Assembly (NCBI GenBank): GCA_943356415.1
Contig: CALREW010000002.1
Location: forward strand, 88,868 to 128,324
Length of the DNA: 39,457 nt
Origin: Candidatus Nomurabacteria bacterium
Lineage (GTDB): Bacteria; Patescibacteriota; Minisyncoccia; Phycocordibacterales; SBAW01
Direction: 5' to 3'
Part shown: positions 4,701-28,951 of the stretch, in pieces
Position numbering within the stretch: the stretch's first letter is position 1
Layout of the letters: every line of letters begins with the position of its first letter
Position numbers and translations under genes: made by a program
Notes under the pieces: model-generated
Database searches by the model: none
The model's input: the letters and a program-made list of their open reading frames with translations, nothing else
What the model was told of the DNA's origin: nothing

Positions 4701-4855
4701 AGAGAGAGAGAGAGTACTCCGCGCTTCGCGCGGAGACGGGCAAACTGGTGCGCTTTTTGCAGGCGTGATGTCACGAAAAACTCCCGGTCGAGTTGGGTGT
4801 CCGACATGCCCCCACACCAATCTTCGTTTTGAAATTCTTGTTGATCTTCGTTCAT
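1745..4855 (-). CDS. DGR target: long repetitive surface protein with N-terminal membrane segment and C-terminal FGE-sulfatase/C-type-lectin-like domain ending in the VR
   Basis: ORF 1745..5233; probable start at MNEDQQEFQNEDW (4855). TM segment SLSLSLATGLVFLSASVALAA, Ser/Thr/Gly-rich stalk with LPVGNGGTGATSLTGLVKGNGTSAF-type repeats, C-terminal WEWVDQ...GGDWGPGAPVGAFALNLSSAPSGSDAGAGFRCSR. Confidence 0.9.
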   Translation of the reverse strand: MNEDQQEFQNEDWCGGMSDTQLDREFFVTSRLQKAHQFARLRAKRGVLSLSLSLATGLVFLSASVALAAHFDVPNGIQAFTQTSVQGAQALVRGTLDGTQTAPSHVARQTQQTAAAAFSAGAGASEQGASSASEYFHSLWSRVADTLAASLLSIANAIPGNTVLFSRNADSAQSAPAALAFAEPAQSPQIVSATSSVTTSTGSTSSPQASSGQATVVNNYITQPVIERTVQTALPLSSGYVTQAELANQLNALSNTFSKTIYGTTYPAPATSYASGGVFNAIALSNKIDNLFGTKLSSITVSGVSGLTDADIPDGITASNYLALTGGTLSGALTIPYLAATSTTATSTFAAGVQATYLNLTGTAATSTAANGFNLSAGCFAVNGTCVTGGGGASLSVANTWTALQLFSAGASSTQLSVFTKAYFGGTATSTFDSAGNLSVAGTASVTGATTLGNFTATNGTTTNATSTNLAVTGTASTSALVASNSFTFSNVTGFLKAVAGAVTTALINLASDVTGILPVGNGGTGATSLTGLVKGNGTSAFTAASAGTDYVAPVTTITAGTGLSGGGDLSANRTLTLNLANANAWTGLQTFANSSSTLASVFNTLYVGGTATSTIQGNTTGTSTIQGFLNVAGTNSTSTFSGALASTYLNLTGTAATSTAANGFNLSAGCFAVNGTCVGGSSSQWTTSGSNIYYTTGSVFIGTTTPGRTFTVFNTAANAQQRISYDATRYAEFYVDASGDLQLSATGKNLRALDANLYLCDGGACPTTPVQGYPSSFTGNGNAVVAGTIYADGFGPATCPTGMIPVPASPADGQQGFCVDKYEAQSSADNEVSVQGGSPWVSITQTSARAECIRAGKHLITEKEWQAIAHNAENVGWNWNGGVAGTNQMSDGHSDNAPASALATAVDTDPCNGTGQTCDTSTWSSQRRTYKLSNGGYIWDFGGNVWEWVDQVVVNDYPIVNSATAGWQACSTSGDGICGNTRTTNDQWYRGGFATIAGFGRGGDWGPGAPVGAFALNLSSAPSGSDAGAGFRCSR
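1747..1864 (-). repeat. DGR variable repeat (VR) at the 3' end of the target gene
   Basis: Ungapped alignment to TR 1143-1260; ends at the target stop codon. Confidence 0.95.
2838..2916 (-). repeat. Intragenic repeat copy 1 in DGR target stalk (79 nt)
   Basis: gcaaaacatcctgcgctaagattgaagccgttcgcggcggtcgaagtggccgccgttcccgtgaggttgaggtaggtgg matches 3714-3792 exactly; encodes LNLTGTAATSTAANGFNLSAGCF. Confidence 0.95.
3714..3792 (-). repeat. Intragenic repeat copy 2 in DGR target stalk (79 nt)
   Basis: Exact match to 2838-2916. Confidence 0.95.
4694..4714. repeat. Dinucleotide microsatellite (GA)10G in the 5' coding region of the DGR target
   Basis: Direct read: tgc-gagagagagagagagagagag-tactcc. 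Confidence 0.98.
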
Positions 4856-4899
4856 AGCAAAAAAATACCGATGTCCCACGATTGGTGTGGGGGCATGTC
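4803..4899. promoter_or_regulatory. 20-bp perfect inverted repeat bracketing the target start codon
   Basis: gacatgcccccacaccaatc (4803-4822) and gattggtgtgggggcatgtc (4880-4899), 57 nt loop containing the start codon at 4853-4855 (minus). Confidence 0.85.
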
Positions 4900-5266
4900 C
4901 ATATTGTCGCACAAAACCGTGGGGGGGTAGCGGCGAGTGTAAATCGGTGTGAATAGCGCGCCCCGCCGCCCATTCAATTTTCAAAAACCCCCGCGAAATG
5001 GATGAGGATGGAGGAGCGTGCGGCGGGACGGGGGTGAGAAAGCGCGGGGCGCTTTCGCAAGGCCGCAGGGCGACGGCCCGAGCCGGGACCGCGCAAAATC
5101 GCAACAGCGATTTATGCGTGGTGGGTCGCGGAATTCGCCAGCAGGCGAATATCCGTGACGAGGACGCGCGTACTCGCGCGTCCGAGTGAATCACCGCAGG
5201 GTCGAATCGTACAATCCGATACAAAGCCACCACGCGCGCGGAGCGCGCGAGTCAGTCGGAGTGCTG

Positions 5267-7085
5267 GCTAAAATAGGTTCTAGCGTGTTTTAATAGAGAC
5301 TCAAGAATCAAACTCAACGGTTTTTCAGAGGCCGAAATGCGCGCGGCGCAAAGCGCCGCGTAGGGGGGAATGGAATTTCCGCGTGCTTCGCGCGCGAGTA
5401 GGAGGTTCAGAAAATACCAAATCCGAAAACTCTTTGGAGGGGAAATGCAAATGCAGAAATCCATAAATACATAGTGGAGTGCTTACCCCGCCCACCCAGC
5501 GCGCACGAGATTGTCCATCCCTCGCCGTTTTTGGGGAACATTGTAAACGGCGGGGATGGCTCCCCAAAATGCAATGCGGTATGATATTTGAGATATGCGA
5601 TATTTTCTTTACGCAAGAAAATCTACCGATGTTGAGGACAAACAAGTTTTATCTATTGAGGCGCAACTTGCCGAACTTCGCGCGCTCGCGAAGCGCGACG
5701 GGCTAGAAATCGCCGAGGAGTTTGTCGAAAAGAAATCCGCGAAGATTCCTGGTCGCGCAATATTCAACGATATGATGTCGCGCATTGAGCGCGGCGAGGC
5801 GCAAGGAATAATTTGTTGGAAAATTGACCGCCTCGCCCGCAACCCCGTGGACGGTGGACAAGTACAGTGGCTTTTGCAACAGGGTGTCATTCGCCATATC
5901 CAAACACACGACCGCTCGCACTATCCGAACGACAATGTGCTGATGATGTCCGTTGAACTGGGAATGGCGAATGAGTATGTGCGCCAGCTGAGCGCGAATA
6001 CCGCGCGAGGGTTGCGGCAAAAAGCGCGGCAAGGAATATATCCAGGGCTTGCGCCATTCGGATATTTGAACGACTCGCGCACCAAAACTATCCGCGTCCA
6101 CAAAAAGAATGCCGCGCTTTTGCGCGAGATGTTTGAACGCTATGCGAGCGGAAGCGCGACGCTGGATGGTTTGGCGGATTTTCTTGAAAGCGCGGGCGTG
6201 ATGTCCAAGGGAAATCGTCGCGTTCACATCTCGCGCATTTCGTTCATTTTGCAAAATCCATTTTATTATGGCCATTTCCGCTACGCGGGCGAGTTGTACG
6301 ACGGCAATCATTCGCCGCTCATTTCAAAATCTTTGTACGACAAAGCAAACGTGGTTTTGCGTGGTCGTGGCCGGACGCTCGCTGTCAAAACCGAACCCGC
6401 GCCGCTGTGCGGCCTCCTGCGGTGCGGTTTTTGCGGCATGGCTATCACGGCCGAAGTGAAAGAGAAGCACCAAAAGAACGGCAATGTCCACCATTACACT
6501 TACTATCGCTGTACGCGCAAAAACAAAGCCGTGAAATGCAAAGAAGCGCCGATGCGAAGCGAATTATTGAATTCGCAACTCTCGGCGCTTCTTGGCGAGT
6601 ACGCCATGCCGCAAGAATGGGTATCGCTCTTGTCGGCGATGCTCGATAGAGAAGCAGCTAGCGCTTCCAAAACGGCGGCGGAGGCCGTTCAAGGACTGCG
6701 GGACAAAGTTTTTGACATTTCTAACAAATTGGAACGTCTTACAGACTTATACGTTGCCGAGGACTTGGAGCGCGAGGAGTATCTTTCGCGCCGTCGTGCG
6801 CTCATGAGCGAGCGCCGGACGATTGAGGAGCAAATCGTCCGTCTTGAACGCGCCCCCGCCGCGTGGGTTGAACCTGTCAGAAACTGGATACAAGACGCTT
6901 CGCGTCTTGGTGAAATGGCAAAATCGGAAGACATCCCCTCCAAAAAATCCCCCCTCCAAAAAGTTTTCGGATTGAACCTCAGAATCCACGCGCGCGAAGC
7001 GCGCGGAAACCCCATTCCCCCCTACGCGGCGCTTTGCGCCGCGCGCATTTCGGCCTCTGAAAAACCGTTGAGTTTGATTCTTGAG
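5267..7085. mobile_element. Serine-recombinase element A, inserted at the 3' end of tRNA-Thr(CGT)
   Basis: Recombinase gene flanked by a 74-nt perfect inverted repeat (5300-5373 / 7012-7085) plus degenerate continuation; right arm ends at the tRNA 3' terminus. Confidence 0.75.
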
Positions 7086-7156: not shown

Positions 7157-7244
7157 AATTTTCAAACACTGAGTCCCGACGTTTCAGTCGGGATCCCGAC
7201 CTTGCGTCGGGACTACTCTGGCGAACAATCGCTATCCTACGAAA

Positions 7245-7850: not shown

Positions 7851-7862
7851 ACTTTTTTTCTT

Positions 7863-8238
7863 GAGTCCCTCTTAAACGAGGCTAGAACCTATTTTAGCAA
7901 AAATGTCTCAGCAAATCTAATCTCACGCGCCGAGCGATTCGTAGTTTGAAATGTAATCGTACGCTACACGACGAACTCCGTCACGCCGTAGCGTCCACTC
8001 CACCAGACTGTCGGGTACGACAGTCTGCTTCCGTTCCCGCTCCGTCGCTCCGCCCTCGCCACCACAGAGTGTATTGTTTGGTGGTGTTGGCGAGGGCGGG
8101 TTTCTCCAAAGGAGAAACTGACGGAGTTCTAGTACCAATTCGGTGGACTCGGTTTTGCGAAACTATTTTCTGGGAAAAGGATTCGCAAAAACCGAGACTG
8201 ATGTTTTTGAAATTCGGTGGGAATTGGGTGGGGTTCCA
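7863..8238 (+). repeat. Long inverted repeat, left copy
   Basis: Aligned by eye to the reverse complement of 16253-16629; few substitutions outside one hairpin block. Confidence 0.93.
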
Positions 8239-8779
8239 AAATACAAATACAACAAATTTTATATTGTCTCGGTTATTTCTCTGCTAGTGTTTGTCCAAGT
8301 CTAAAGGAGATGCACCCTCGGCATCCGCCTCGGGTATTTCCGCTAGGGCTACGAGCGCCTAGATTACTTGGTGTCCTGCATATCCTCGCATTCCGCGCTT
8401 GCGAGCGCGTGCTCGGGCAGGACTCTTTTTGGGGAGAGGAAAGAATCCTCTCCCCAGCTCCGCCTCGGTTCGTGCTCCGCTTCGCTACGCATTCCGCAGA
8501 GCGGAACAGGGCTCACCCCACCCGGCTACGCCAACCCCTCTCCTTGTTTTCATTATTGCGTTCAGTGTGTCGCTTTCGCTACTAGGCTATGAGACTTCGT
8601 TTAACGTCGGCGCTCGTCCTTTAGCCCTGGACGCCCTAGCGGAAATACCCGAGGCTCAAATGCAAATGCGCTTGACCCACCCTCCCGTTCGCGCGCAAAC
8701 CCGCTCGCAGAGGAGGAGAGGGGTGCGAGCGGGGCTCCCTAGAGTTCAGAATTATACAAAAAGTGATATACTGAAATAT

Positions 8780-9667
8780 ATGTGGCAAAAACTTTCTAAC
8801 ATATTTAAATCTTCCTATGCTGCAATTTCAATCATTACCATGATCGTTGTTTGGTCTGCCATTTCCTATTTTGCAATATCATATAGTTCAAAATTCTTTT
8901 CCAACATAACAAGTGAGAGTCTATCTGATGTCTCTGATACTAATGCGTCATCTGATGCCGAAGATTGCAATGTTCAAGGTATAAATATACATGGAGATAT
9001 TGTTACATATAATTCTCACGACGCTTTTAATGATCAAGGTCAATTAAAATATGACCAAACTTCTGCTGATGAAGTTACTTGGTACATAAAAGAAGCAGGA
9101 GAAAAAGAAAATATCAAAGCGATTGCAATAGAAATTGATTCAAGTGGTGGTTCTGGCGAAGCGGGCGAAGAAATTATGCAAGCTCTAAAACAATCCGGAA
9201 AACCAACAGTGGCATTTATCCGCAATAGAGGACTATCAGCAGGATATTTATTAGCCACAGGTGCTCAAACTATTTTTGCCTCAAAGTTTTCTGATGTTGG
9301 AAGTATAGGTGTTACTCAATCTTATTTACAGAATACAGATAAAAACAAAAAAGACGGATACACCTACATAGATTTAAGTTCTGGTAAATACAAAGATACA
9401 GGAAGCCCAGATCGAGCCATTACTGAAGATGAAAAGCAAATGATTATGAGAGATATAAAAATCGGTTTAGATTATTTTATACAAATAGTCGCAAAAAATC
9501 GTAATTTAGATATTGAGAAAGTCAAAAAATTAGCCGATGGTTCTACTGTCATGGGAGAAACTGCTCTAAAAGATGGTTTGATAGACAAAATCGGATTACT
9601 TCCTGATGTGGAAAATTTCCTTACTGAAAAGATGGGTACCGAAGCAAAAATTTGTTGGCAGAATTAA
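8780..9667 (+). CDS. SppA-like (S49 family) membrane-anchored peptidase
   Basis: Start MWQKLSNIFKSS at 8780; N-terminal TM; IKAIAIEIDSSGGSGEAGEEI...PTVAFIRNRGLSAGYLLATGAQTIFASKFSDVGSIGV matches the S49 fold pattern. Confidence 0.88.
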   Translation: MWQKLSNIFKSSYAAISIITMIVVWSAISYFAISYSSKFFSNITSESLSDVSDTNASSDAEDCNVQGINIHGDIVTYNSHDAFNDQGQLKYDQTSADEVTWYIKEAGEKENIKAIAIEIDSSGGSGEAGEEIMQALKQSGKPTVAFIRNRGLSAGYLLATGAQTIFASKFSDVGSIGVTQSYLQNTDKNKKDGYTYIDLSSGKYKDTGSPDRAITEDEKQMIMRDIKIGLDYFIQIVAKNRNLDIEKVKKLADGSTVMGETALKDGLIDKIGLLPDVENFLTEKMGTEAKICWQN

Positions 9668-9684
9668 GATGCAAGTGTATTTAT

Positions 9685-12600
9685 CTACTTAGAAAATTTA
9701 CCACCAGAAATATCAAAGAATCTCTCAAAGAAACTCGCGAGCTTGTTCAATACACTTTCTCGTTTTTGGGTTCTTTCACCAGTTGGAGAAAAACGAGATA
9801 CAGGAGGTAATACTTTTGAAATTGCTGTGCCAGTTGTGGCAATACCACCATCCCTAAAAGCATTCTTTATAAACACATAAGTAGCGTCACGATCAAGACT
9901 TTCGGTAGTGATAATCTTTTCTAATTCTTCAATTTTCTTTTCCTCAACAAATTTCTGCCAATCTTCATCCACTACCGCGTGAACATCGAGAGAGGTAATA
10001 AATTGGTTGATAAGGTCTTTTTTATTTCGTAGCTCGACACTGGAATCAATCGCCTTGTTGATATCGAGCAAGAGTTCACGATTTTTTATATGATCTTCGT
10101 GATATTTTTTAATCAAGCCCAAAACATAGTCAATATTTATCTCTATTTGCTTAATAAGCTCCATTTCAAATACCACATCATCGTTGATGTTTTCCTTTTC
10201 TTCTTCTACCCCCTTGCGAAATTCGTTGTACAAATCAATGTACATACTGTGATAATCCTGCACATCTCGTTCGGTCAAAATCTCATTCCCAGCAAACTCA
10301 TCGAAGGTTACAAGTATATTTCGGACACGCAGAACCGCTCCGTATAACCTGATAAAATCTTTTTGATTCTGCTCTCCCATAATTCTTTCACCCACAGGGA
10401 ACTTTTCTAACAATTCCTTTACCAAACTTTCATACCCTCGCACTTCCTTATCGCCGTCTTTGTAGCCATGATAATAATCATCGTATGCCTTCAAAAGCAC
10501 TATTCCACTCGCTTCTTTATCGCCAAAGAGCGCGATAGATTCATTTGTTGCTTTTTCTAGGTTACGAAAGCAGATAATGTTTCCAAAAGTCTTCACACTA
10601 TTCAAAATACGATTCGTTCTTGAATATGCTTGGAGTAGTCCGTGTAAGCGTAAATTCTTATCAACCCAAAGCGTGTTGAGCGTCGTGGCATCAAATCCGG
10701 TTAGAAACATATTCACCACGATTAAAATATCAATCTCACGATTCTTTACACGCTCACTGACATCCTTGTAGTAATTCTGAAACTTATCAGACGAAGTATC
10801 ATACGAAGTCCCAAACATCGCGTTGTAATCCTTGATAGCACTATCCAAAAAGTCTCGTGAACTTACATCAAGCCCGCTTGTGTCCTCTGAATTTTCGTCA
10901 ATCATTCCGTCTGCATCCTCGTCATTTACTCCAAAACTATAAATCGTTGCCACCTTGAATCGTTTGTCGCTTGGCTCACCTTCAAGTTGTTTTTTAAATT
11001 CAGCATAATACTTTTTAGCCACATCAATAGATGAAACTGCAAAAATAGAATTGAAACCAGCCATTCTGCGGTCTTTGATTTTATAGAAACTATTACGCTT
11101 TGTTTTCTGGTCAAAATGTTCACGAATATATCGCACAATATTTTCCAAACGCTCTGGCGCAGAAAGCACCGCCTCTCGGTCAATATCGCTAACTTTTTTA
11201 TCCTCAATATTTTCTGCCTCACGAACAGTAGAAACATAATCAACCTTAAACGGCAGAACATTTTTATCAGCAATGGCGTCTACGATAGTGTAGGTGTGCA
11301 ATTTTTCACCAAATGCCTGCTCGGTTGTTTTCAAATCTGGGCGACCGCCAGAAGAAGCATTGATTGCAAAAATAGGTGTGCCAGTAAATCCAAAAATATG
11401 GTAATTTTTAAAAGCTTTGGTAATCGCCGCGTGCATATCACCAAATTGCGAACGATGACATTCGTCAAAAATCAAAATAATATGTCCATCAAAAATAGTG
11501 TGCCCAGAGTTGCGACCAATAAACCTGTCTAATTTTTGAATAGTGGTAATGATGATACGAGTACTCGGATTCTCAAGTTGTTTTTTAAGCACTGCGGTCG
11601 AGGTATTACTATTCGCTGCGCCTTTTTCAAACTTGTCGTACTCCTTCATCGTCTGATAGTCCAAATCCTTGCGATCAACCACAAATAAAACTTTATCTAC
11701 ATACGGCAATTTACTGACGAGCTGTGCCGTTTTGAAACTGGTCAAAGTCTTCCCCGACCCTGTGGTGTGCCAGATATATCCACCCGCCTCTGATGTGCCG
11801 AGCTTTTTGTAGTTGGTACTGACTTCTGTTCTACTTAAAATACGCTCCGTTGCCACAATCTGATATGGTCGCATCACGAGGAGTAAATGCTCAGTAGTGA
11901 ATACACAATACTTAGTCAAAATATTTAAAAGAGCATGTTTAGCAAAAAAAGTTTTTGCAAAATCCATCAAATCAGTAATAGGGCGATTGGTCGCATCTGC
12001 CCACCAGCTCGTGAATTCAAAACTGTTGCTCGTTCGTTTGCCTTTCTTTACTCCACCCTCATTTGATTCCTTAATATGCTGGGCACGAGTAGTATTGCTG
12101 TAGTATTTGGTATGCGTACCGTTTGAAATAACAAACAACTGCACATACTCAAAAAGCCCACTTGATGCCCAAAAGCTTTCTCGTTGATAGCGATTGATTT
12201 GATTAAACGCTTCTTGAATAGCCACACCACGACGCTTGAGCTCAATATGCACGAGTGGTAAGCCATTTACCAAAACCGTCACATCATAGCGATTGGAACG
12301 CTTACCGTCTTCGGTTGCATACTGATTTATCACCTGCAAACTATTGTCGTGAATGTTGTCTTTCTTTATAAGATAAACATTTTTTATAGAACCGTCATCA
12401 CGAGTTAGATTCTTAACATGATCTTCTTGAATAGTTGCTGTCTTTTCCTCAATGCTCTGATTTGGATTGGCAATTTCGTTTGCAAAAAACTTTTCCCATT
12501 CAGTATCGGTAAACTCGAAGCCATTTAGTTTTTCCAGTTGCTTACGCAAATTCTGTGTCAAATCTGCTTCGGAAGTAATGGACACATATTCATACGCCTG

Positions 12601-12744
12601 CGTACCGAGTTGCTCTATAAAGGCACGCTCAAGCTCCGCCTCGCTCTGATAGTGAGCAACACGCTTGCCGTCGGGGATGTATTCCGCAACAACAGTGCTT
12701 TGCGGACTTTCCGCAACTAAATTGTATTTGTTGTTAGTGGACAT
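9685..12744 (-). CDS. hsdR: Type I restriction endonuclease subunit R
   Basis: VHIELKRRGVAIQEAFNQINRYQR (nuclease), GYIWHTTGSGKTLTSFK (Walker A), LIFDECHRSQFG (DECH), FGFTGTPIF. Confidence 0.97.
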   Translation of the reverse strand: MSTNNKYNLVAESPQSTVVAEYIPDGKRVAHYQSEAELERAFIEQLGTQAYEYVSITSEADLTQNLRKQLEKLNGFEFTDTEWEKFFANEIANPNQSIEEKTATIQEDHVKNLTRDDGSIKNVYLIKKDNIHDNSLQVINQYATEDGKRSNRYDVTVLVNGLPLVHIELKRRGVAIQEAFNQINRYQRESFWASSGLFEYVQLFVISNGTHTKYYSNTTRAQHIKESNEGGVKKGKRTSNSFEFTSWWADATNRPITDLMDFAKTFFAKHALLNILTKYCVFTTEHLLLVMRPYQIVATERILSRTEVSTNYKKLGTSEAGGYIWHTTGSGKTLTSFKTAQLVSKLPYVDKVLFVVDRKDLDYQTMKEYDKFEKGAANSNTSTAVLKKQLENPSTRIIITTIQKLDRFIGRNSGHTIFDGHIILIFDECHRSQFGDMHAAITKAFKNYHIFGFTGTPIFAINASSGGRPDLKTTEQAFGEKLHTYTIVDAIADKNVLPFKVDYVSTVREAENIEDKKVSDIDREAVLSAPERLENIVRYIREHFDQKTKRNSFYKIKDRRMAGFNSIFAVSSIDVAKKYYAEFKKQLEGEPSDKRFKVATIYSFGVNDEDADGMIDENSEDTSGLDVSSRDFLDSAIKDYNAMFGTSYDTSSDKFQNYYKDVSERVKNREIDILIVVNMFLTGFDATTLNTLWVDKNLRLHGLLQAYSRTNRILNSVKTFGNIICFRNLEKATNESIALFGDKEASGIVLLKAYDDYYHGYKDGDKEVRGYESLVKELLEKFPVGERIMGEQNQKDFIRLYGAVLRVRNILVTFDEFAGNEILTERDVQDYHSMYIDLYNEFRKGVEEEKENINDDVVFEMELIKQIEINIDYVLGLIKKYHEDHIKNRELLLDINKAIDSSVELRNKKDLINQFITSLDVHAVVDEDWQKFVEEKKIEELEKIITTESLDRDATYVFIKNAFRDGGIATTGTAISKVLPPVSRFSPTGERTQKRESVLNKLASFFERFFDISGGKFSK

Positions 12745-13909
12745 ATTCGTTGAAAGTTAAAACCTTGCCCCGATAGTATTCGTATTGAGACCGACGGGCT
12801 TTGAGTTCGGCAGGTAAACCGATTGAAATGTCGTTCGTAAGCACCTCGAATCTATCTAAAATTGAAATTACTCGTTCTTGTTCTTCGAGAGAAGCTATTG
12901 GGATTTTTATCTTTTTGAAATTATCATTGTAAAGTCTTTGGATTGTTCCGCCTTCTGTCTGCCATTTAACAGTCGCATAAAAATGATATAAAAATCTGTT
13001 TAATACTTTGCCCTCATCATGTTCAAGCCAAATAATATTGGAATCTTGAAAATATGCGGGTTCGCCGTTGTAGACAACTCGTCGCCCGATAGTACCAGAA
13101 GCAGATAAAAGTACGTCGCCTTTCTTTGGAAAAGAAAACTTATTGCGATACTCGTTAAAAACCTTTTCAGATATAAACGCATCTGGTTTCTTGCCAAAAG
13201 TCCCAATTTTGTAAAATGGGATTTCTCCAGTCGCAGTTGTTTCATTTTTGAATATTCTTTTACACATAGATACTTTTCCAATTTCACTAATCGGAATCCA
13301 CCGTACCCCCCCCTCTGGGAAGGTTAGGAGTTGTGTTCGATAATGTTCATACTGTTTCTTTCTCGCTTCTAGCTCCGCTTCTAGCTCCGCTTCTAGCTCC
13401 GCTTCTAGCTCCGTAAAACTATTAAGAATTTTGACAATTTCCTCCTGCACCGCAAGTGGCGGGAGAGGGATTTTGAAATCTTGCAGGGTCGATAACACGA
13501 TATAAGTCATCGCCGCACTATTTGTTTTTGTTGCAAGATATTTTTTTAGATTGTCGTTAAGTGCAAAATATAAAAATCGCACATCAATATCTTTACTGAA
13601 GTTTGTTAATACATAGGTTCGCTGATATGCCTCAAACTTACCGATGTAATGCTTTACTTCGCCAACATTCGCATTCCCCGCAATTAGTAATGCTTCTGTG
13701 TCCCAGCGATATTTATCAATTCTGCTAATTTCTTTTGCAGTAGTGAAAAACATATACTCGCCACCATCAACCGCAGCGTTTGCATTGAGTTTACCTGTCT
13801 CAATTTTACAAACCTTACCCAACTCCTTAAACTCCACCCCATTCGGGCAAAGCTTTGCGATTAACTGTTCAATTTTGCTTTGGTTCTTTGTCATATTATT
13901 TTCCTTCAA
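12734..13909 (-). CDS. hsdS: Type I restriction specificity subunit S
   Basis: Two TRD-like halves with conserved regions (PLPPLAVQEEIVKILNSF; ...EEQERVISILDRF) and a central ELEA tandem repeat. Confidence 0.95.
   Translation of the reverse strand: MKENNMTKNQSKIEQLIAKLCPNGVEFKELGKVCKIETGKLNANAAVDGGEYMFFTTAKEISRIDKYRWDTEALLIAGNANVGEVKHYIGKFEAYQRTYVLTNFSKDIDVRFLYFALNDNLKKYLATKTNSAAMTYIVLSTLQDFKIPLPPLAVQEEIVKILNSFTELEAELEAELEAELEARKKQYEHYRTQLLTFPEGGVRWIPISEIGKVSMCKRIFKNETTATGEIPFYKIGTFGKKPDAFISEKVFNEYRNKFSFPKKGDVLLSASGTIGRRVVYNGEPAYFQDSNIIWLEHDEGKVLNRFLYHFYATVKWQTEGGTIQRLYNDNFKKIKIPIASLEEQERVISILDRFEVLTNDISIGLPAELKARRSQYEYYRGKVLTFNEYVH
13365..13412. repeat. Four perfect 12-nt tandem repeats (gcttctagctcc) in the hsdS central spacer
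   Basis: Direct read; encodes ELEAELEAELEAELEA. Confidence 0.97.
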
Positions 13910-15479
13910 TATCCGCCACGATTTTATCTATCGCAGTGCGAAGTTCATTTTGTCGCGCGACAATACGAGCAATCTCGGTATTGAGCTCGGTAATATCGAC
14001 GACCTCACGAGTATCTTTTGCTATAACATAGCTTGAAACAGTAATATTATAGTCGTTCTCGGCAATATCTTTGTTGTTTACAATTTTTGCAAAATGCTCT
14101 ATATCTTTGCGAGAAATAAAAGCATCGAGAATTTTCTTGCGATTCACTTCACTCAATTTATTTTTATTACCACCGCGCACAAATTCGGCGGAAGCATCAA
14201 TGAATAGAGTCTTGTTATCTTTCTTGCTCTTTTTGAGAATTACAATACAGGTAGCGATTGTTGTACCAAAGAACAAATCAGGTGGGAGTTGAATTACTGC
14301 ATCAACATAATTGTTTTCTATAAGATATTTACGGATTTTCTGCTCGGCTCCGCCTCGATAGAGAACACCCGGGAATTCAACAATCGCCGCCGTGCCACTG
14401 GTAGAAAGCCATGAGAGCATATGGAGGGTAAATGCGAGGTCAGCCTTGCTCTTTGGAGCAAGCACTCCGGCAGGAGAAAAACGAGGATCATTGATAAGAA
14501 GAGGGTTAGCATCGCCCTCCCAATTGATTGAATACGGTGGATTGGAAACAATGGCATCAAATGGCTCATCGTCCCAATGTTTCGGGTCGGTTAGGGTGTC
14601 ACCGTGGGCAATATCAAAATTGTTGTAGTTGATATCATGGAGGAACATATTGATACGACAGAGGTTGTAGGTCGTGATGTTTATTTCTTGACCAAAGAAT
14701 CCTTGCCGAACATTTTCCTTGCCGAGCACTTTGGCAAATTTAAGAAGAAGCGAACCAGAGCCACAGGCAGGGTCATACACTTTATTCACTTCCTTTTTAC
14801 CGACGGTAGTTATTTCTGCAAGAAGTTCACTGACTTCCTGTGGCGTAAAAAATTCACCTCCAGATTTACCAGCGTTAGAAGCATACATGGTCATCAAAAA
14901 TTCGTATGCATCACCGAAAGCGTCTATGGTGTTATCGCCATAGTCACCAAGACGGAGGTCGCCAATAGCTTCGAGAAGTTTTACAAGCTTTTTATTTCTG
15001 TTCTCTACATTAGAGCCGAGCTTGTTTGAGTTCACATCCAAGTCGTCAAACAATCCCTTCAGGTCGTCTTCACTGCTTGCTCCTTTTGCTGAATTTTCAA
15101 TATTAGTAAAAACATTCGCTAGTGTTTCGTTTAGATTTGCATCATTACGTGCGTTTTTACGAACATTTACAAAAAGTGCGCTTGGTAATATATAAAATCC
15201 TTTTTCTTTTACGGTATCAGCTCGCCCAAATTCTGCTTCTTTGTTTGATAGGGTCGCATAGTCAAAATCTTTCTTCCCAGAACGACGCTCGTCGGCATTG
15301 ATATAGTTTGTAAGGTTTTCACTGATGAATCTATAAAACAAAATTCCAAGAACATACTGCTTAAAATCCCAACCATCAACACTCCCACGCAAGTCTGTAG
15401 CGATTTGCCAAATAGCACGATGAAGTTCTGTGCGCTCTTGCTCCTTGCTGTTATTTTGATTTGCTTTGTCTTTGCTCAT
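13896..15479 (-). CDS. hsdM: Type I restriction methyltransferase subunit M
   Basis: KVYDPACGSGSLLLKF and DAIVSNPPYSINW methyltransferase motifs. Confidence 0.97.
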   Translation of the reverse strand: MSKDKANQNNSKEQERTELHRAIWQIATDLRGSVDGWDFKQYVLGILFYRFISENLTNYINADERRSGKKDFDYATLSNKEAEFGRADTVKEKGFYILPSALFVNVRKNARNDANLNETLANVFTNIENSAKGASSEDDLKGLFDDLDVNSNKLGSNVENRNKKLVKLLEAIGDLRLGDYGDNTIDAFGDAYEFLMTMYASNAGKSGGEFFTPQEVSELLAEITTVGKKEVNKVYDPACGSGSLLLKFAKVLGKENVRQGFFGQEINITTYNLCRINMFLHDINYNNFDIAHGDTLTDPKHWDDEPFDAIVSNPPYSINWEGDANPLLINDPRFSPAGVLAPKSKADLAFTLHMLSWLSTSGTAAIVEFPGVLYRGGAEQKIRKYLIENNYVDAVIQLPPDLFFGTTIATCIVILKKSKKDNKTLFIDASAEFVRGGNKNKLSEVNRKKILDAFISRKDIEHFAKIVNNKDIAENDYNITVSSYVIAKDTREVVDITELNTEIARIVARQNELRTAIDKIVADIEGK

Positions 15480-15483
15480 AAAA

Positions 15484-16149
15484 TTATTTTCCTCTTTCTA
15501 TATCAGCTTGTTGTTGCATCCATGCATCCCCAGCCGCCTCAATTTCTTTATCTGTTGGTTCTCCCTCGTCCATTCTTCTGCGTCTATCATCTAAAATCTC
15601 GTCTTCAAACTCAAAATATAGGGTTCCTTGTGGGCGTCTCGAATACCCCAATAATTCCATAGCGAAACTAGACAAGCTATTTACTTTACCGTTAATTTTA
15701 ATTTTGTCATTTTCTACTACTTCAGCAATAACATTGGAATCTCGTGTAAAAGTAAGTTTTGATCCGACAGGAATTCTGTACTGTGCAAAATGGAATCGTG
15801 AGCGTCTTTCTTTAACCTCATCAACTTCTTTTTCCTGTTCGGGAGTTAATCCACTATCAATTTTTGTTTCTCCAATTTCTACTCGTTTCAATGCAAGCGC
15901 AGCATATTCTGGATTCATCTTAAAAAATTCTCGGCTATCCCGTGCTCGACGATCAGCAAAAATTGAATGGAGCCATTTTTCCTCTTTTTCAGCATTTTCT
16001 ACAGTCGCAGCGTAGTAAACCTCAAACGGAAGCGGTACGCCCGTTCGGTCTAACTGTTTGAGTCTTTCTTTAACATCACCGTGAGTAAAGCCGATTTTTA
16101 CATATTCCGGCATCGATTCATTTTTTAAAATGTAGACAATTTGATTCAT
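15484..16149 (-). CDS. GIY-YIG / T5orf172-domain-like protein associated with the R-M operon
   Basis: MNQIVYILKNESMPEYVKIGFTHGDVKERLKQLDRTGVPLPFEVYYAATVENAEKEEKWLHSIFADRR. Confidence 0.8.
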   Translation of the reverse strand: MNQIVYILKNESMPEYVKIGFTHGDVKERLKQLDRTGVPLPFEVYYAATVENAEKEEKWLHSIFADRRARDSREFFKMNPEYAALALKRVEIGETKIDSGLTPEQEKEVDEVKERRSRFHFAQYRIPVGSKLTFTRDSNVIAEVVENDKIKINGKVNSLSSFAMELLGYSRRPQGTLYFEFEDEILDDRRRRMDEGEPTDKEIEAAGDAWMQQQADIERGK

Positions 16150-16252
16150 AAAATTACACCACTTTTTGTGATTTTTTCATTTTAGCATTTTTTAGCCATA
16201 TTTTCCAGTCCAAAAAATTTGCGCGCATTCCCTCCCAGACCCTTCCTGCGCG

Positions 16253-16629
16253 TGGAACCCCCCACCCAATTCCCACCGAATTTCAAAAACATCAGTCTCG
16301 GTTTTTGCGAATCCTTTTCCCAGAAAACAGTTTCGCAAAACCGAGTCCACCGAATTGGCACTAGAACTCCGTCAGTTTCTCCTTTGGAGAAACCCGCCCT
16401 CGCCACTACACCAAACAATACATTGTGTGGTGGTGAGGGCGGAGCGACGGAGCGGTAACGGAAGCTAACACCAGTATTCTGGTGTTCGGTGGAGTGGACG
16501 CTACGGCGTGACGGAGTTCGTCGTGTAGCGTACGATTACATTTCAAACTACGAATCGCTCGGCGCGTGAGATTAGATTTGCTGAGACATTTTTGCTAAAA
16601 TAGGTTCTAGCCTCGTTTAAGAGGGACTC
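16253..16629 (-). repeat. Long inverted repeat, right copy
   Basis: Reverse complement near-identical to 7863-8238. Confidence 0.93.
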
Positions 16630-16874
16630 CAGAATTAAACCGAGCGATTTTTTGGCGGGATTTTGGCGGGCAGAGCGGAGCTCTGCCCAAGGATTTAAGC
16701 CATTTCCGACCGCTTCGCGGTTTTTTAGGGGAGGTTCAAAAATTCAAAAGCCCAAGATTTTTGGAGGGAAGATTTTTTGTGGGGAGGTCGTGCAAAATAT
16801 ATAACACTTGCCCCACCCACCCGTGCGCGTGTTAAATTTTGCCGATTTGAAAATCGGCAAACTCCCTTTAATAT

Positions 16875-17108
16875 CTATTTCATCAATTCACCAACTGAAA
16901 CTCCGATTGCTTTTGCTATTTTAGCAATCGTCGCAAGTGTTGGATTGGTTTTTCCATTTTCAATACTACTTACAAAACTTTTAGGCATATCCAATGTTTT
17001 TACTATATCTCCTTGGGATATGCCCTTTTTAGTTCTAATCCGTTTTAAGTTTTGACCGAGTCTTTTTGATTCACCATTCATTGATAACAGTATAACTTGC
17101 TCTTGCAC
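16875..17108 (-). CDS. Cro/CI-type HTH regulator, divergent from the recombinase
   Basis: LGQNLKRIRTKKGISQGDIVKTLDMPKSFVSSIENGKTNPTLATIAKIAKAIGVSVGELMK. Confidence 0.92.
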   Translation of the reverse strand: MQEQVILLSMNGESKRLGQNLKRIRTKKGISQGDIVKTLDMPKSFVSSIENGKTNPTLATIAKIAKAIGVSVGELMK

Positions 17109-17127
17109 TTTACACTATGGGTTATGG

Positions 17128-17133
17128 TATAAT
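17128..17133 (+). promoter_or_regulatory. Consensus -10 box (TATAAT) 6 nt upstream of the recombinase ATG
   Basis: ggTATAATagaactATG; ATG at 17140. Confidence 0.6.
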
Positions 17134-17139
17134 AGAACT

Positions 17140-18693
17140 ATGCAAAAATACTTTTTATACGCTCGCAAAAGCACCGATGTGGAGGACAAACAAATCCTTT
17201 CTATTGAAGGGCAACTTGCTGAATTGCGAGACCTCGCCAAACGAGAAAGTATCTACATTGCCGATGAGTTTATTGAAAAACGATCAGCAAAAATTCCCGG
17301 TCGTCCAGTTTTTAACAATATGCTTTCTCGTATTCAAAATGGCGAAGCGCAAGGAATTGTTTGCTGGAAAATTGACCGCTTGTCTCGCAACCCCGTTGAT
17401 AGTGGAAAAATCCAATGGATGCTCCAACAAAACATAATCCAACATATTCAAACTCACGGACAAAGTCATTATCCAAATGACAACGTGTTAATGATGTCCG
17501 TGGAATTAGGAATGGCGAACGAATATGTTCGCCAACTAAGTGAAAATACCGCACGAGGTTTGCGACAAAAAGCGCGCAACGGAGACTTTCCCGGCAAAGC
17601 TCCGCTTGGATATATAAATAATTCCAATATCAAGAAAATTGCTGTCCATAAGAAAAATTCAAAGATTGTAAAACAAATGTTTGAACTTTACGCGACAGGA
17701 AATGTGCGACTGGAAGACCTCGCAAAAATTTTAGAAAAATCAGACATACTTTCCAAAAATAATCGTAGAGTCCATGTTTCGCGAGTATCACATATTATCA
17801 ATAATCCAATTTATTACGGACACTTTCGCCACGCTGGAGAAATATATGAAGGCAAACATGAGCCGATTATTTCCAAAGAAATTTTCGATAAAGCAAATAA
17901 TGTTTTGCGAGGCAGGGGTCGCACGCCCGACAAGAAAACAGACCCACGACCATTTTGCGGACTTATGTCCTGTGGTTCGTGCGGTATGGGGATTACAGGA
18001 GAGATAAAAATCAAACGACAAAAGAATGGCACAAAACATTTGTACACTTATTATCATTGTTCCAAAAAATCCAAAGTGCAAAAATGTTTTGAGCCGTGCA
18101 TACGAGGCGAGGAATTGGATCGCCAACTTTCGGCAAAAATGAGCGAATATAGTATGCCGAAAGAATGGGCGACAAAATTATTTGAAATGTTAGATGTTGA
18201 GGAACAGAGAAATAAACACACCGCGTCGGTGGTAGTTTTAGATTTGCGAGAAGAAGAACAAAACATTTCAAAAAACCTCGCCAGACTTACAGATGTGTAT
18301 GTAGCGCAGGATATTGAGCGTGAGGACTATTTAAAAAGGCGTCGCTCGCTTATGTCCGACAAAAAGTCTGTCGAGGAAAAAATGGGGCATCTTTTAAGAA
18401 CCCCATCCGCGTGGATCGAACCGACACGCGAATGGATAAAAGACGCTTTAACACTGGATGAAATCGCGAAAACGAACGACCTCCCCTCCAAAAAAATCTC
18501 CCTCCAAAAAATCTTCGGCTCGAACCTCACCCTAAAAAACCGCGAAGCGGTCGGAAATGGCTTAAATCCTTGGGCAGAGCTCCGCTCTGCCCGCCAAAAT
18601 CCCGCCAAAAAATCGCTCGGTTTAATTCTGGAGCCGTTGCCCGGAATCGAACCGGGGACCTACTCCTTACCATGGAGTTGCTCTACCAGCTGA
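17140..18693 (+). CDS. Large serine recombinase (paralogue of 5595..7145)
   Basis: MQKYFLYARKSTDVEDKQILSIEGQLAELRDLAKRES...; same architecture; stop codon inside the antisense tRNA-Thr gene. Confidence 0.95.
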   Translation: MQKYFLYARKSTDVEDKQILSIEGQLAELRDLAKRESIYIADEFIEKRSAKIPGRPVFNNMLSRIQNGEAQGIVCWKIDRLSRNPVDSGKIQWMLQQNIIQHIQTHGQSHYPNDNVLMMSVELGMANEYVRQLSENTARGLRQKARNGDFPGKAPLGYINNSNIKKIAVHKKNSKIVKQMFELYATGNVRLEDLAKILEKSDILSKNNRRVHVSRVSHIINNPIYYGHFRHAGEIYEGKHEPIISKEIFDKANNVLRGRGRTPDKKTDPRPFCGLMSCGSCGMGITGEIKIKRQKNGTKHLYTYYHCSKKSKVQKCFEPCIRGEELDRQLSAKMSEYSMPKEWATKLFEMLDVEEQRNKHTASVVVLDLREEEQNISKNLARLTDVYVAQDIEREDYLKRRRSLMSDKKSVEEKMGHLLRTPSAWIEPTREWIKDALTLDEIAKTNDLPSKKISLQKIFGSNLTLKNREAVGNGLNPWAELRSARQNPAKKSLGLILEPLPGIEPGTYSLPWSCSTS

Positions 18694-18704
18694 GCTACAA
18701 CGGC
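18633..18704 (-). tRNA. tRNA-Thr (anticodon GGT)
   Basis: Minus: GCCGTTGTAGCTCAGCTGGTAGAGCAACTCCATGGTAAGGAGTAGGTCCCCGGTTCGATTCCGGGCAACGGC. Confidence 0.95.
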
Positions 18705-18708
18705 GAGT

Positions 18709-18916
18709 GAGGAACAAGAGATATGCTCGCATGATCTCTTTGTTTCCGAGCGAGCCGTTCAATGACGGAGTCATTGCCAACGGCTTTTCTGCCTAAACGA
18801 ACCGTTCAATTTTTGTCTCTGGACAAAAATTACCAACGGCGAACCCTTTTGACCGTTCAATGACCTAGTTATTGCCAACGGCGATAACTGCTAGTTTATA
18901 GCAGTTATCGCCGTTG
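18709..18916. repeat. Array of five hairpin units; four carry GCCGTT/AACGG ends resembling the tRNA-Thr(GGT) acceptor stem
   Basis: Units at about 18709-18750, 18754-18784, 18802-18840, 18853-18882 and 18876-18916 (18-bp perfect stem, 5-nt loop). Confidence 0.8.
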
Positions 18917-18934
18917 TAGTAAACGTCCTTTCTT

Positions 18935-19432
18935 TTATAAATCCGTCCTCTTTTTCACTTCAAAAATAAACTCGTAGTTACTGACAGGCGCCGTGTTGGT
19001 GGTGCGCTTAAGTGGCAATACCTCGACAAGCGTTATGGTGCGAGTCTCGGTCGTAATAGTTTTTCCAAGCTCGAACACTTGCACTCCTACTCCAGAAGGA
19101 GTTGCGAGCGTTGTGCGAACTTTGACAGTGCCGGCCCATACACACTGCACCTCCATTGGGCAGCGACTATCTTCAGTAACCTCAAGCGGGAGTATGGTGA
19201 TGCCGAGACCCTCTGCGCTCATATTAATGTGTGCACGGAGCGTAATCTGGTCCGCCTCTGCTGCCGGAGTGGTAGTGATTGCAGACGTCGAAGGCACACC
19301 AGGGACTACGGTAAGAGGAACCTCCTTTGACGGTGCAAAAAGGTAAATCGTTCCAAGCAGAAGTGCGATGGCAACAATAGCGACAATGGCAATATTTCCT
19401 CTCATACAACGCAATAACGATCGACGAAACAA
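18935..19432 (-). CDS. Hypothetical membrane-anchored/exported protein
   Basis: N-terminal TM (MRGNIAIVAIVAIALLLGTIYLF); no family recognised. Confidence 0.7.
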   Translation of the reverse strand: MFRRSLLRCMRGNIAIVAIVAIALLLGTIYLFAPSKEVPLTVVPGVPSTSAITTTPAAEADQITLRAHINMSAEGLGITILPLEVTEDSRCPMEVQCVWAGTVKVRTTLATPSGVGVQVFELGKTITTETRTITLVEVLPLKRTTNTAPVSNYEFIFEVKKRTDL

Positions 19433-28106: not shown

Positions 28107-28920
28107 AGAGGCCTATGTGGCCGAAGTACGCCACTGCAGTGGCAAGAACAATAAAAGGACCGAACGGTACCTCGCTTTCCATTGTAACGCCGTGACTGCG
28201 CTTGCTGAAAGAGCTTACGAGAAGCAAGCCGAGGCCAAAGAGCGCTCCAATCCAAAATGAGAGCATGAAGGCCGCAGCCCCAGAAACAAGCCCGAGGAAG
28301 GCTCCGCACGCAAAAAAAAGTTTTGCGTCCCCGAGACCAATAAGACGCCCGCGCGAGATAACCCACAAAAGAGCGATGGGCACCGAAAGAACGAGCGCTC
28401 CAAGGACGCTGTCGGAGATGTCTATAGTGGTATATCCAAAGAAACTTGCCCCGAGTGCGATCAGTGCCGCAGCATATACGAACGCATCAGGAATAATGGT
28501 GTGCCGAAGGTCGTATACAGAAATAAAGAGAAGGATAGTAAAAAAACTGAGCACCACAATAAAAGAAGCGGTGTCACCCTGCGTTTCCATGAAAGAAAAT
28601 GCCGTGAGAACACCAGCTACCATTTCCACGATTGGGTACTGCGGAGATATGCCTGCTTTGCAGGATGCGCATTTACCTTTAAGGCCAAGATACGAAAGAA
28701 GCGGCACCAGATGAATAGCTTTCAAAGTCGTCCCACAAGAGAGGCACGCCGAACGACCCCACATGGAACGTCCTGTGTTGTAACGAAACGCGAGCGCATT
28801 AAGAAAGCTCCCGATAATGGTGCCGAAAACAAAAAGAATAATGACGTCGAGAGGCTCTATCACGCCTTTTAGTATACCTCCACACCAAGAGGCGCTGATG
28901 GGAGGTGTCCCTTTAAACAA
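28078..28920 (-). CDS. pilD: Prepilin peptidase (A24 family)
   Basis: GTIIGSFLNALAFR, CLSCGTTL...C.SC, SVYDLRHTIIPD, GLGDAKLFFACGAFLG. Confidence 0.95.
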   Translation of the reverse strand: MFKGTPPISASWCGGILKGVIEPLDVIILFVFGTIIGSFLNALAFRYNTGRSMWGRSACLSCGTTLKAIHLVPLLSYLGLKGKCASCKAGISPQYPIVEMVAGVLTAFSFMETQGDTASFIVVLSFFTILLFISVYDLRHTIIPDAFVYAAALIALGASFFGYTTIDISDSVLGALVLSVPIALLWVISRGRLIGLGDAKLFFACGAFLGLVSGAAAFMLSFWIGALFGLGLLLVSSFSKRSHGVTMESEVPFGPFIVLATAVAYFGHIGLYDILAFLAL

Positions 28921-28951
28921 ACAAACGCCCCATTGGGGCGTTTGTTTGTTT
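28915..28951. terminator. Terminator-like hairpin between the pilin gene and pilD
   Basis: aaacaaacaaacgcccc-att-ggggcgtttgtttgttt. Confidence 0.8.

Follow-up and report, generated by a model that had tools for sequence, protein, structure and literature searches.

Why should the leader of a tRNA gene contain hairpins whose arms repeat the acceptor strand of that same tRNA? The question arises in a 39,457-nucleotide stretch of the Candidatus Nomurabacteria contig CALREW010000002.1 (the window), where an array of hairpins precedes the gene for tRNA-Thr(GGT). A preliminary description had taken the hairpins for mimics of the tRNA-Thr acceptor stem, possibly decoys, processing signals or tRNA-targeting palindromic elements. 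The array exists: three GG-bulged hairpins (U1, U2 and U3) have arms that repeat the acceptor-strand sequence of tRNA-Thr(GGT) and share the frame GCCGTTGGYAAT...ATTGAACGG, in which CCGTT, the GG bulge, an inner stem and AACGG follow one another; the inner stems are unlike. These were said all to pair, but the inner stem of U1 contains a single A-C mismatch. The distal hairpin (H0, 18876-18893/18899-18916) is a perfect 18-bp hairpin, as described, and overlaps the start of U1 (H0 as a whole, 18876-18916); the inverted copy reported for the first 10 nt of the tRNA is present, but its length is 12 nt (18908-18919, two leader bases and nt 1-10), and from the letters around it we infer an extent of 21 nt (18899-18919).

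An additional hairpin (hairpin B) between U3 and the tRNA, absent from the preliminary description, is the hallmark of a family of elements with the consensus R''-N-TCRYTC-hairpin B-TCRYTT-R'-TAR, in which R'' and R' are 7-nt reverse complements; its loop in the window corresponds to the conserved ACAAGC-type loop of the relatives. U3 and the adjoining 49-nt core make up one complete element, with a GCCGTTG copy, R'' (AACGGC), TCGCTC, hairpin B, TCACTC, R' (tRNA nt 1-7) and TAG. U1 and U2 are without hairpin B and have shrunken remains in its place, and the TA(G) behind the upstream copy now reads GC or GT in U1-U3. In the predicted fold, AACGGC..GCCGTTG gives an R''-spacer-stem-spacer-R' layout with a 6x6 internal loop; the pre-tRNA with its leader folds much more stably than 100 dinucleotide shuffles (z = -5.85).

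Table 1. Features of the tRNA-Thr(GGT) gene and its leader (window coordinates).
Feature	Position	Strand	Basis or remark
tRNA-Thr(GGT), putative target gene of the element	18629-18704	minus	ARAGORN and Rfam
tRNA-Thr(GGT) nt 1-7, GCCGTTG, as R'	18698-18704	minus	
tRNA-Thr(GGT) nt 8-10, TAG, as TAR motif	18695-18697	minus	
Element core, TCGCTC-hairpin B-TCACTC, 49 nt	18705-18753	minus	3' end abuts tRNA nt 1 exactly
Hairpin B, GGAAACAAAGAGATCATGCGAGCATATCTCTTGTTCC, with bulged A residues	18711-18747	minus	fold
U3, GCCGTTGGCAATGACTCCGTCATTGAACGGC, hairpin A	18754-18784	minus	sequence, fold
U3, upstream copy of tRNA nt 1-7, then GG bulge and inner stem	18778-18784	minus	
U3, arm R'', AACGGC	18754-18759	minus	
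U2, GCCGTTGGTAATTTTTGTCCAGAGACAAAAATTGAACGGT, same build as U3	18801-18840	minus	sequence, repeats
U1, GCCGTTGGCAATAACTAGGTCATTGAACGGT, single A-C mismatch in inner stem	18852-18882	minus	sequence, repeats
H0, perfect 18-bp hairpin, 5-nt loop	18876-18893 / 18899-18916	minus	inverted repeat
CTACAACGGCGATAACTGCTA, inverted copy of leader and tRNA nt 1-10 (TAGCAGTTATC-GCCGTTGTAG)	18899-18919	minus	12-nt inverted repeat
Candidate tRNA promoter, TTTACT-17-TATAAA, within H0	18895-18923	minus	by eye and by analogy

The TTTACT-17-TATAAA sequence in H0 is possibly the promoter of tRNA-Thr(GGT); this assignment is modelled on the order promoter, copy, insert, tRNA at other loci, and a scan with the consensus promoter found no match, TTTACT-17-TATAAA included. 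If the promoter lies within H0, U1 would sit where the start of the tRNA originally was.

The array is missing at nearly all of about 35 orthologous tRNA-Thr(GGT) loci in the family and the order, the exceptions being genomes G009 (with GCCGTTGTAAGC-AAA-GCTTGCAACGAC upstream of the tRNA), G083 and G378, the last two found later; with so many orthologous loci lacking it, a conserved regulator of tRNA-Thr was dropped as an explanation. At the same locus, tRNA nt 1-12 are repeated in tandem in G049 and G055. The exact U-hairpin pattern gave scattered, chance-like matches in the genome and viral collections, none of them convincing, and a simple hairpin B pattern matched only the window and the tRNA-Trp locus of G050; covariance models were needed. 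When tRNAs were compared with their own upstream sequences, the first 14 nt were repeated (at least 10 nt) at 12 of 138 tRNAs in five genomes, where swapped tRNAs predict about 0.3; part of these repeats belongs to a separate twin-hairpin family (TH, see below). A lenient acceptor-mimic score (39 matches vs 18 expected) was replaced by a stricter stem test, which gave 5 matches vs 0.3 expected. Acceptor-matched hairpins recur at other tRNAs and in other genomes, each fitting its own tRNA; the idea of tRNA-targeting palindromic elements is supported, and a search for similar arrays at other tRNAs of the lineage did find them in relatives.

Five tRNAs of G050 (Met, Asp, two Arg and Ala) are preceded by a hairpin that fits the acceptor strand of the respective tRNA and then by a long hairpin B, and the tRNA-Trp of the same genome has a short form that is clearly related to the core in the window. 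Model R1 was built from the linker and hairpin B of five G050 paralogues, leaving out hairpin A and the tRNA; compensatory changes occur in 18 of the 38 pairs of hairpin B in these paralogues. In 397 genomes of the order, R1 identified cores directly 5' of tRNA-Ile (G137, G405, G005), tRNA-Thr (G378), tRNA-Gly (G074) and tRNA-Ala (G403, G162), that is, in other families, and these have a hairpin matched to their own tRNA (a weaker match in G005). Model R2 was built from seven short, tRNA-adjacent forms, the window core among them, and its E-values are rough; this core, as a training sequence, scores 49.6 bits and is the sole match in the window. With R2, the family is found in 81 of the 397 genomes, with at most 12 copies per genome. 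Because R2 was trained on tRNA-adjacent copies, the tRNA enrichment among its best matches is biased.

The R2 matches obey a simple arm rule: R'' (7 nt, separated from the left end of the core by a single base) and R' (7 nt immediately after the core; e.g., GCCGTTG, GGGCCCG or GTGATTA) are reverse complements of each other, and TAA or TAG comes directly after R'. Among the top 30 matches, about half of which are away from tRNAs, R'' is complementary in at least six of seven positions in 27 and TAR is present in 28. We then considered an independent set, the 43 unique further R2 matches that were used in no model: R'' is complementary to R' (at least 6/7) in 36 of the 43, compared with 1.9% in a swap control, TAR is present in 38, and R' starts with G in 39. 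Thirty-four of the 43 are not directly at tRNAs, and 29 of these keep the arm rule. Neither model includes R'' or R', and the rule is therefore not a product of model building. One might suspect palindromes that arose by chance, or ordinary terminators, in the vicinity of a tRNA, as the isolated matches to the U-hairpin pattern elsewhere do look like chance; however, this explanation is contradicted by the swap controls and by the TAR enrichment described below, and we regard it as extremely improbable.

At tRNA sites, R' is formed by the tRNA's own nt 1-7 and TAR by U8-A9-G10. In the independent set, nine of the 43 matches are directly 5' of a tRNA, a fairer estimate of the tRNA share than the best R2 matches give and one that is far above chance. 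Approximately 28-35 nt before the core, tRNA sites carry nt 1-7 a second time, often together with TA, and this sequence forms hairpin A with R''; such an upstream copy (at least 8/9) occurs at eight of nine tRNA sites but at four of 34 others in the independent set (Fisher p 2.8e-5), and at 11 of 16 tRNA sites vs two of 14 others among the top 30. The triplet itself matters, as judged from its enrichment: TAR is present at nt 8-10 in 24 of 25 element-bearing tRNAs vs 59% of 193 tRNAs (p 3.5e-5). By their own sequence tRNAs provide the target, with G1 in most and U8-A9-G10 in more than half.

These observations also bear on a functional role for the leader RNA, in which hairpin A mimics the acceptor stem and steers folding, processing or quality control of the pre-tRNA. 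The arms fit their own tRNA at many tRNAs, some upstream copies that differ from the tRNA can still pair with G-U (Asp, Arg and Ala in G050), and the hairpins lie between promoter and tRNA, all of which speaks for such a role. However, the same core and arm rule are found at many non-tRNA sites, presence at a given orthologous tRNA is lineage-specific, and no tRNA-specific feature is left beyond R' and TAR; we therefore judge a functional leader to be improbable. The 'decoys' and 'processing signals' of the preliminary description are not supported as the cause of the tRNA resemblance: 7-nt arms with this self-complementarity are also present at sites without a tRNA, which makes a decoy or pre-tRNA role unnecessary, and the features are the marks of a dispersed element.

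The dispersal is clearest in G218, where eleven copies have the core and the arms TAATCAC/GTGATTA in common, nearly all unchanged, and differ in their outer flanks; the left end of these copies lies beyond R'', and a TA duplication, possible from the sequence, may accompany insertion. Two tandem rounds at a single tRNA are found in G406 (Asp) and G180 (Ile).

We think it likely that the array in the window arose in three nested rounds, in each of which the same small palindromic element inserted at the 5' end of tRNA-Thr(GGT). This interpretation builds on the dispersal of the family, the arm rule, TAR, the placement at tRNAs, the upstream copy at tRNA sites and the tandem copies, each established at the level of sequence. 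The element would enter just before U8-A9-G10, leaving the old nt 1-7 upstream while nt 1-7 are re-formed downstream, so that the tRNA would survive; later rounds would re-enter the same site, making U1 the oldest, U2 the next and U3 with hairpin B the youngest. U1 and U2 would then be older rounds from which hairpin B has been lost. H0 retains GCCGTTGTAG in its inverted copy, which suggests that U1 once continued with the TAG of the tRNA. Located between promoter and tRNA, the hairpins should leave with the 5' leader upon cleavage by RNase P. Several points count against the insertion reading: the only aligned empty site belongs to the TH family, no recombinase or transposase was identified for the element family, hairpin B is missing from U1 and U2, and the TA(G) behind the upstream copy is altered in U1-U3.

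Restoration of nt 1-7 might occur in either of two ways. The displaced 7 nt might be copied through two hairpins, from the upstream copy to R'' and from R'' to R', by palindrome correction; alternatively, selection might retain only those insertions in which R' equals nt 1-7. The mismatch patterns among the copies do not settle the direction of copying. The upstream copy may persist at tRNAs by occupying R'', because a free R'' could pair with the 5' strand of the tRNA. The most elaborate proposal is that a mobile hairpin element splits tRNA genes at the universally conserved U8-A9-G10 and repairs its host gene by copying the displaced acceptor strand through both hairpins in turn, first into R'' and then into R'; every tRNA with TAR at nt 8-10 would then be a safe harbour, and the element would adopt the sequence of each tRNA; we offer this tentatively and consider it doubtful in its entirety. 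If restoration is templated, a parasite would have a new way to spare the gene of its host. The R''-core-R'-TAR rule is simple and testable, and it describes an unnamed dispersed element in a bacterial order with very small genomes; it accounts for tRNA-looking hairpins in tRNA leaders without decoys, and it suggests that insertion takes place at the 5' end of tRNA genes, the classical case being the 3' end.

Several known systems resemble the element. REP and BIME sequences with their RAYT transposases form the GTAG and CGTC palindromic superfamilies (PMC3733652, PMC8266576), and some REP families sit within palindromic targets (PMC3733652). Like these, the element is a short, dispersed, bulged palindrome that occurs as singles, dimers and clusters; unlike these, it has no GTAG or CGTC tag, its arms are site-specific yet self-complementary, and it has fixed TCRYTC linkers, is flanked by TAR and abuts tRNA nt 1 exactly. 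Mobilisation of a REP element by the genome's own Y1 (REP-associated) transposase is an unlikely origin. G000 does encode one Y1 transposase (42.3 bits to REP_Tyr_transpos, under the cut-off of 80), the stems of E. coli REPs typically have bulges (PMC8266576), and in this genome the REP-like TH family follows NTAG where tRNA nt 1-10 are copied; however, no GTAG is found at the foot of U1-U3 or hairpin B, TH and the array element are unlike in sequence and build, and no TH pair is found beside the Y1 transposase gene.

The REP-like TH family is present in the order at many tRNAs, and at other sites as well. Like the array element, TH is found at tRNA genes (at nt 10/11, with nt 1-10 repeated downstream), but it consists of twin hairpins (..CCGAC..GTCGG.. 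and TCCCGAC..GTCGGGA) with no arm complementary to the tRNA. The sister species G002 has the empty site for a 65-nt TH insert in the tRNA-Ile of G016. In the window, the TH hairpin pair is absent at 18600-18960 and present at 7174-7212; upstream of tRNA-Thr(CGT) (7157-7222), a copy of nt 1-10 (GCCAGAGTAG), two TCCCGAC..GTCGGGA hairpins, CTCAGTG and the intact tRNA follow one another. At the tRNA-Val(CAC) genes of G026 and G020 (loci L122 and L267), the upstream copy of nt 1-10 varies in step with the tRNA (GCACTCTTAG vs GCACCCTTAG), which suggests conversion or constraint.

The attC sites of integrons have complementary R boxes, unpaired spacers, a bulged stem and a variable apical part, with R' reading GTTRRRY. 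A folded recombination site of this type, in which an R box and an unpaired spacer accompany a lower stem and a variable loop, used by an integron-like system, would fit the layout R''-spacer-stem with extrahelical bases-spacer-R' of the fold and the frequent G at the start of R' (39/43); however, R' is not GTTRRRY at most sites, genome searches directed at the element itself brought up no integrase or cassette array, and the G218 copies are dispersed, so this origin seems less probable still than a REP. Some integrative elements attach at tRNA genes, which they restore; as with the array element, the tRNA gene is split, its end is restored by the insert and a direct repeat is left, but the array element is at the 5' end rather than the 3' end and its insert is approximately 80-160 nt without genes. 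Compared with a MITE, which has terminal inverted repeats and a target duplication, R'' and R' are inverted, but the left end of the G218 copies is not at R''. The Rickettsia palindromic elements, as far as they are described in a mention in PMC3733652, are likewise small palindromes within genes that they do not destroy, although mainly protein genes; this comparison is by description only. In Rfam 15, only the tRNA reaches its gathering score and the element matches no RNA family, and a search of open-access papers found no description of the element family; with no GTAG tag, no GTTRRRY box, no Rfam match and no description in these papers, we class it as new among small palindromic elements.

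The window and its relatives have other unusual features. Both tRNA-Thr genes have a paralogous large serine recombinase (CcrB/XisF-like) at the 3' end, with flanking inverted repeats of 97-104 bp (window 5265-7085 and 7853-18633); the array was considered as part of this recombinase element, and this was dropped as the latter lies beyond the 3' end of the tRNA. In most relatives the two tRNA-Thr genes are neighbours, whereas in the window 11.5 kb separate them; this interval, which includes a type I restriction-modification system as well, resembles an integrated element. An inverted repeat of approximately 380 bp (91-99%) with foldable segments (7853-8233 and 16260-16639) probably represents the attachment arms of this integrated element. 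An HsdS-like ORF contains tandem 12-bp units (13364-13411; ELEAELEAELEA linker), and perfect inverted repeats of 20 and 18 bp occur at 4803-4899 and 28915-28951, respectively.

Elsewhere, decayed 5' fragments of tRNA-Gly with a hairpin (GGTT-CTCRCYTGGGYAARCCC..) in place of the D-loop are found upstream of the tRNA-Gly genes of G000 and G026 (L043, L046, L104), and tRNAs of G049, G055 and G349 have a similar change in the D-arm (AGCTGTTTTGGTAG). Perfect long inverted repeats on the antisense strand consist of tRNA-Ser and tRNA-Leu 3' ends (L299, L301). Finally, tRNA-Thr-like matches in 5' and 3' halves approximately 190 nt apart (G026, C6:5692-5739 and 5929-5964; G053, C1:62775-63046) are possible tRNA introns or split genes.
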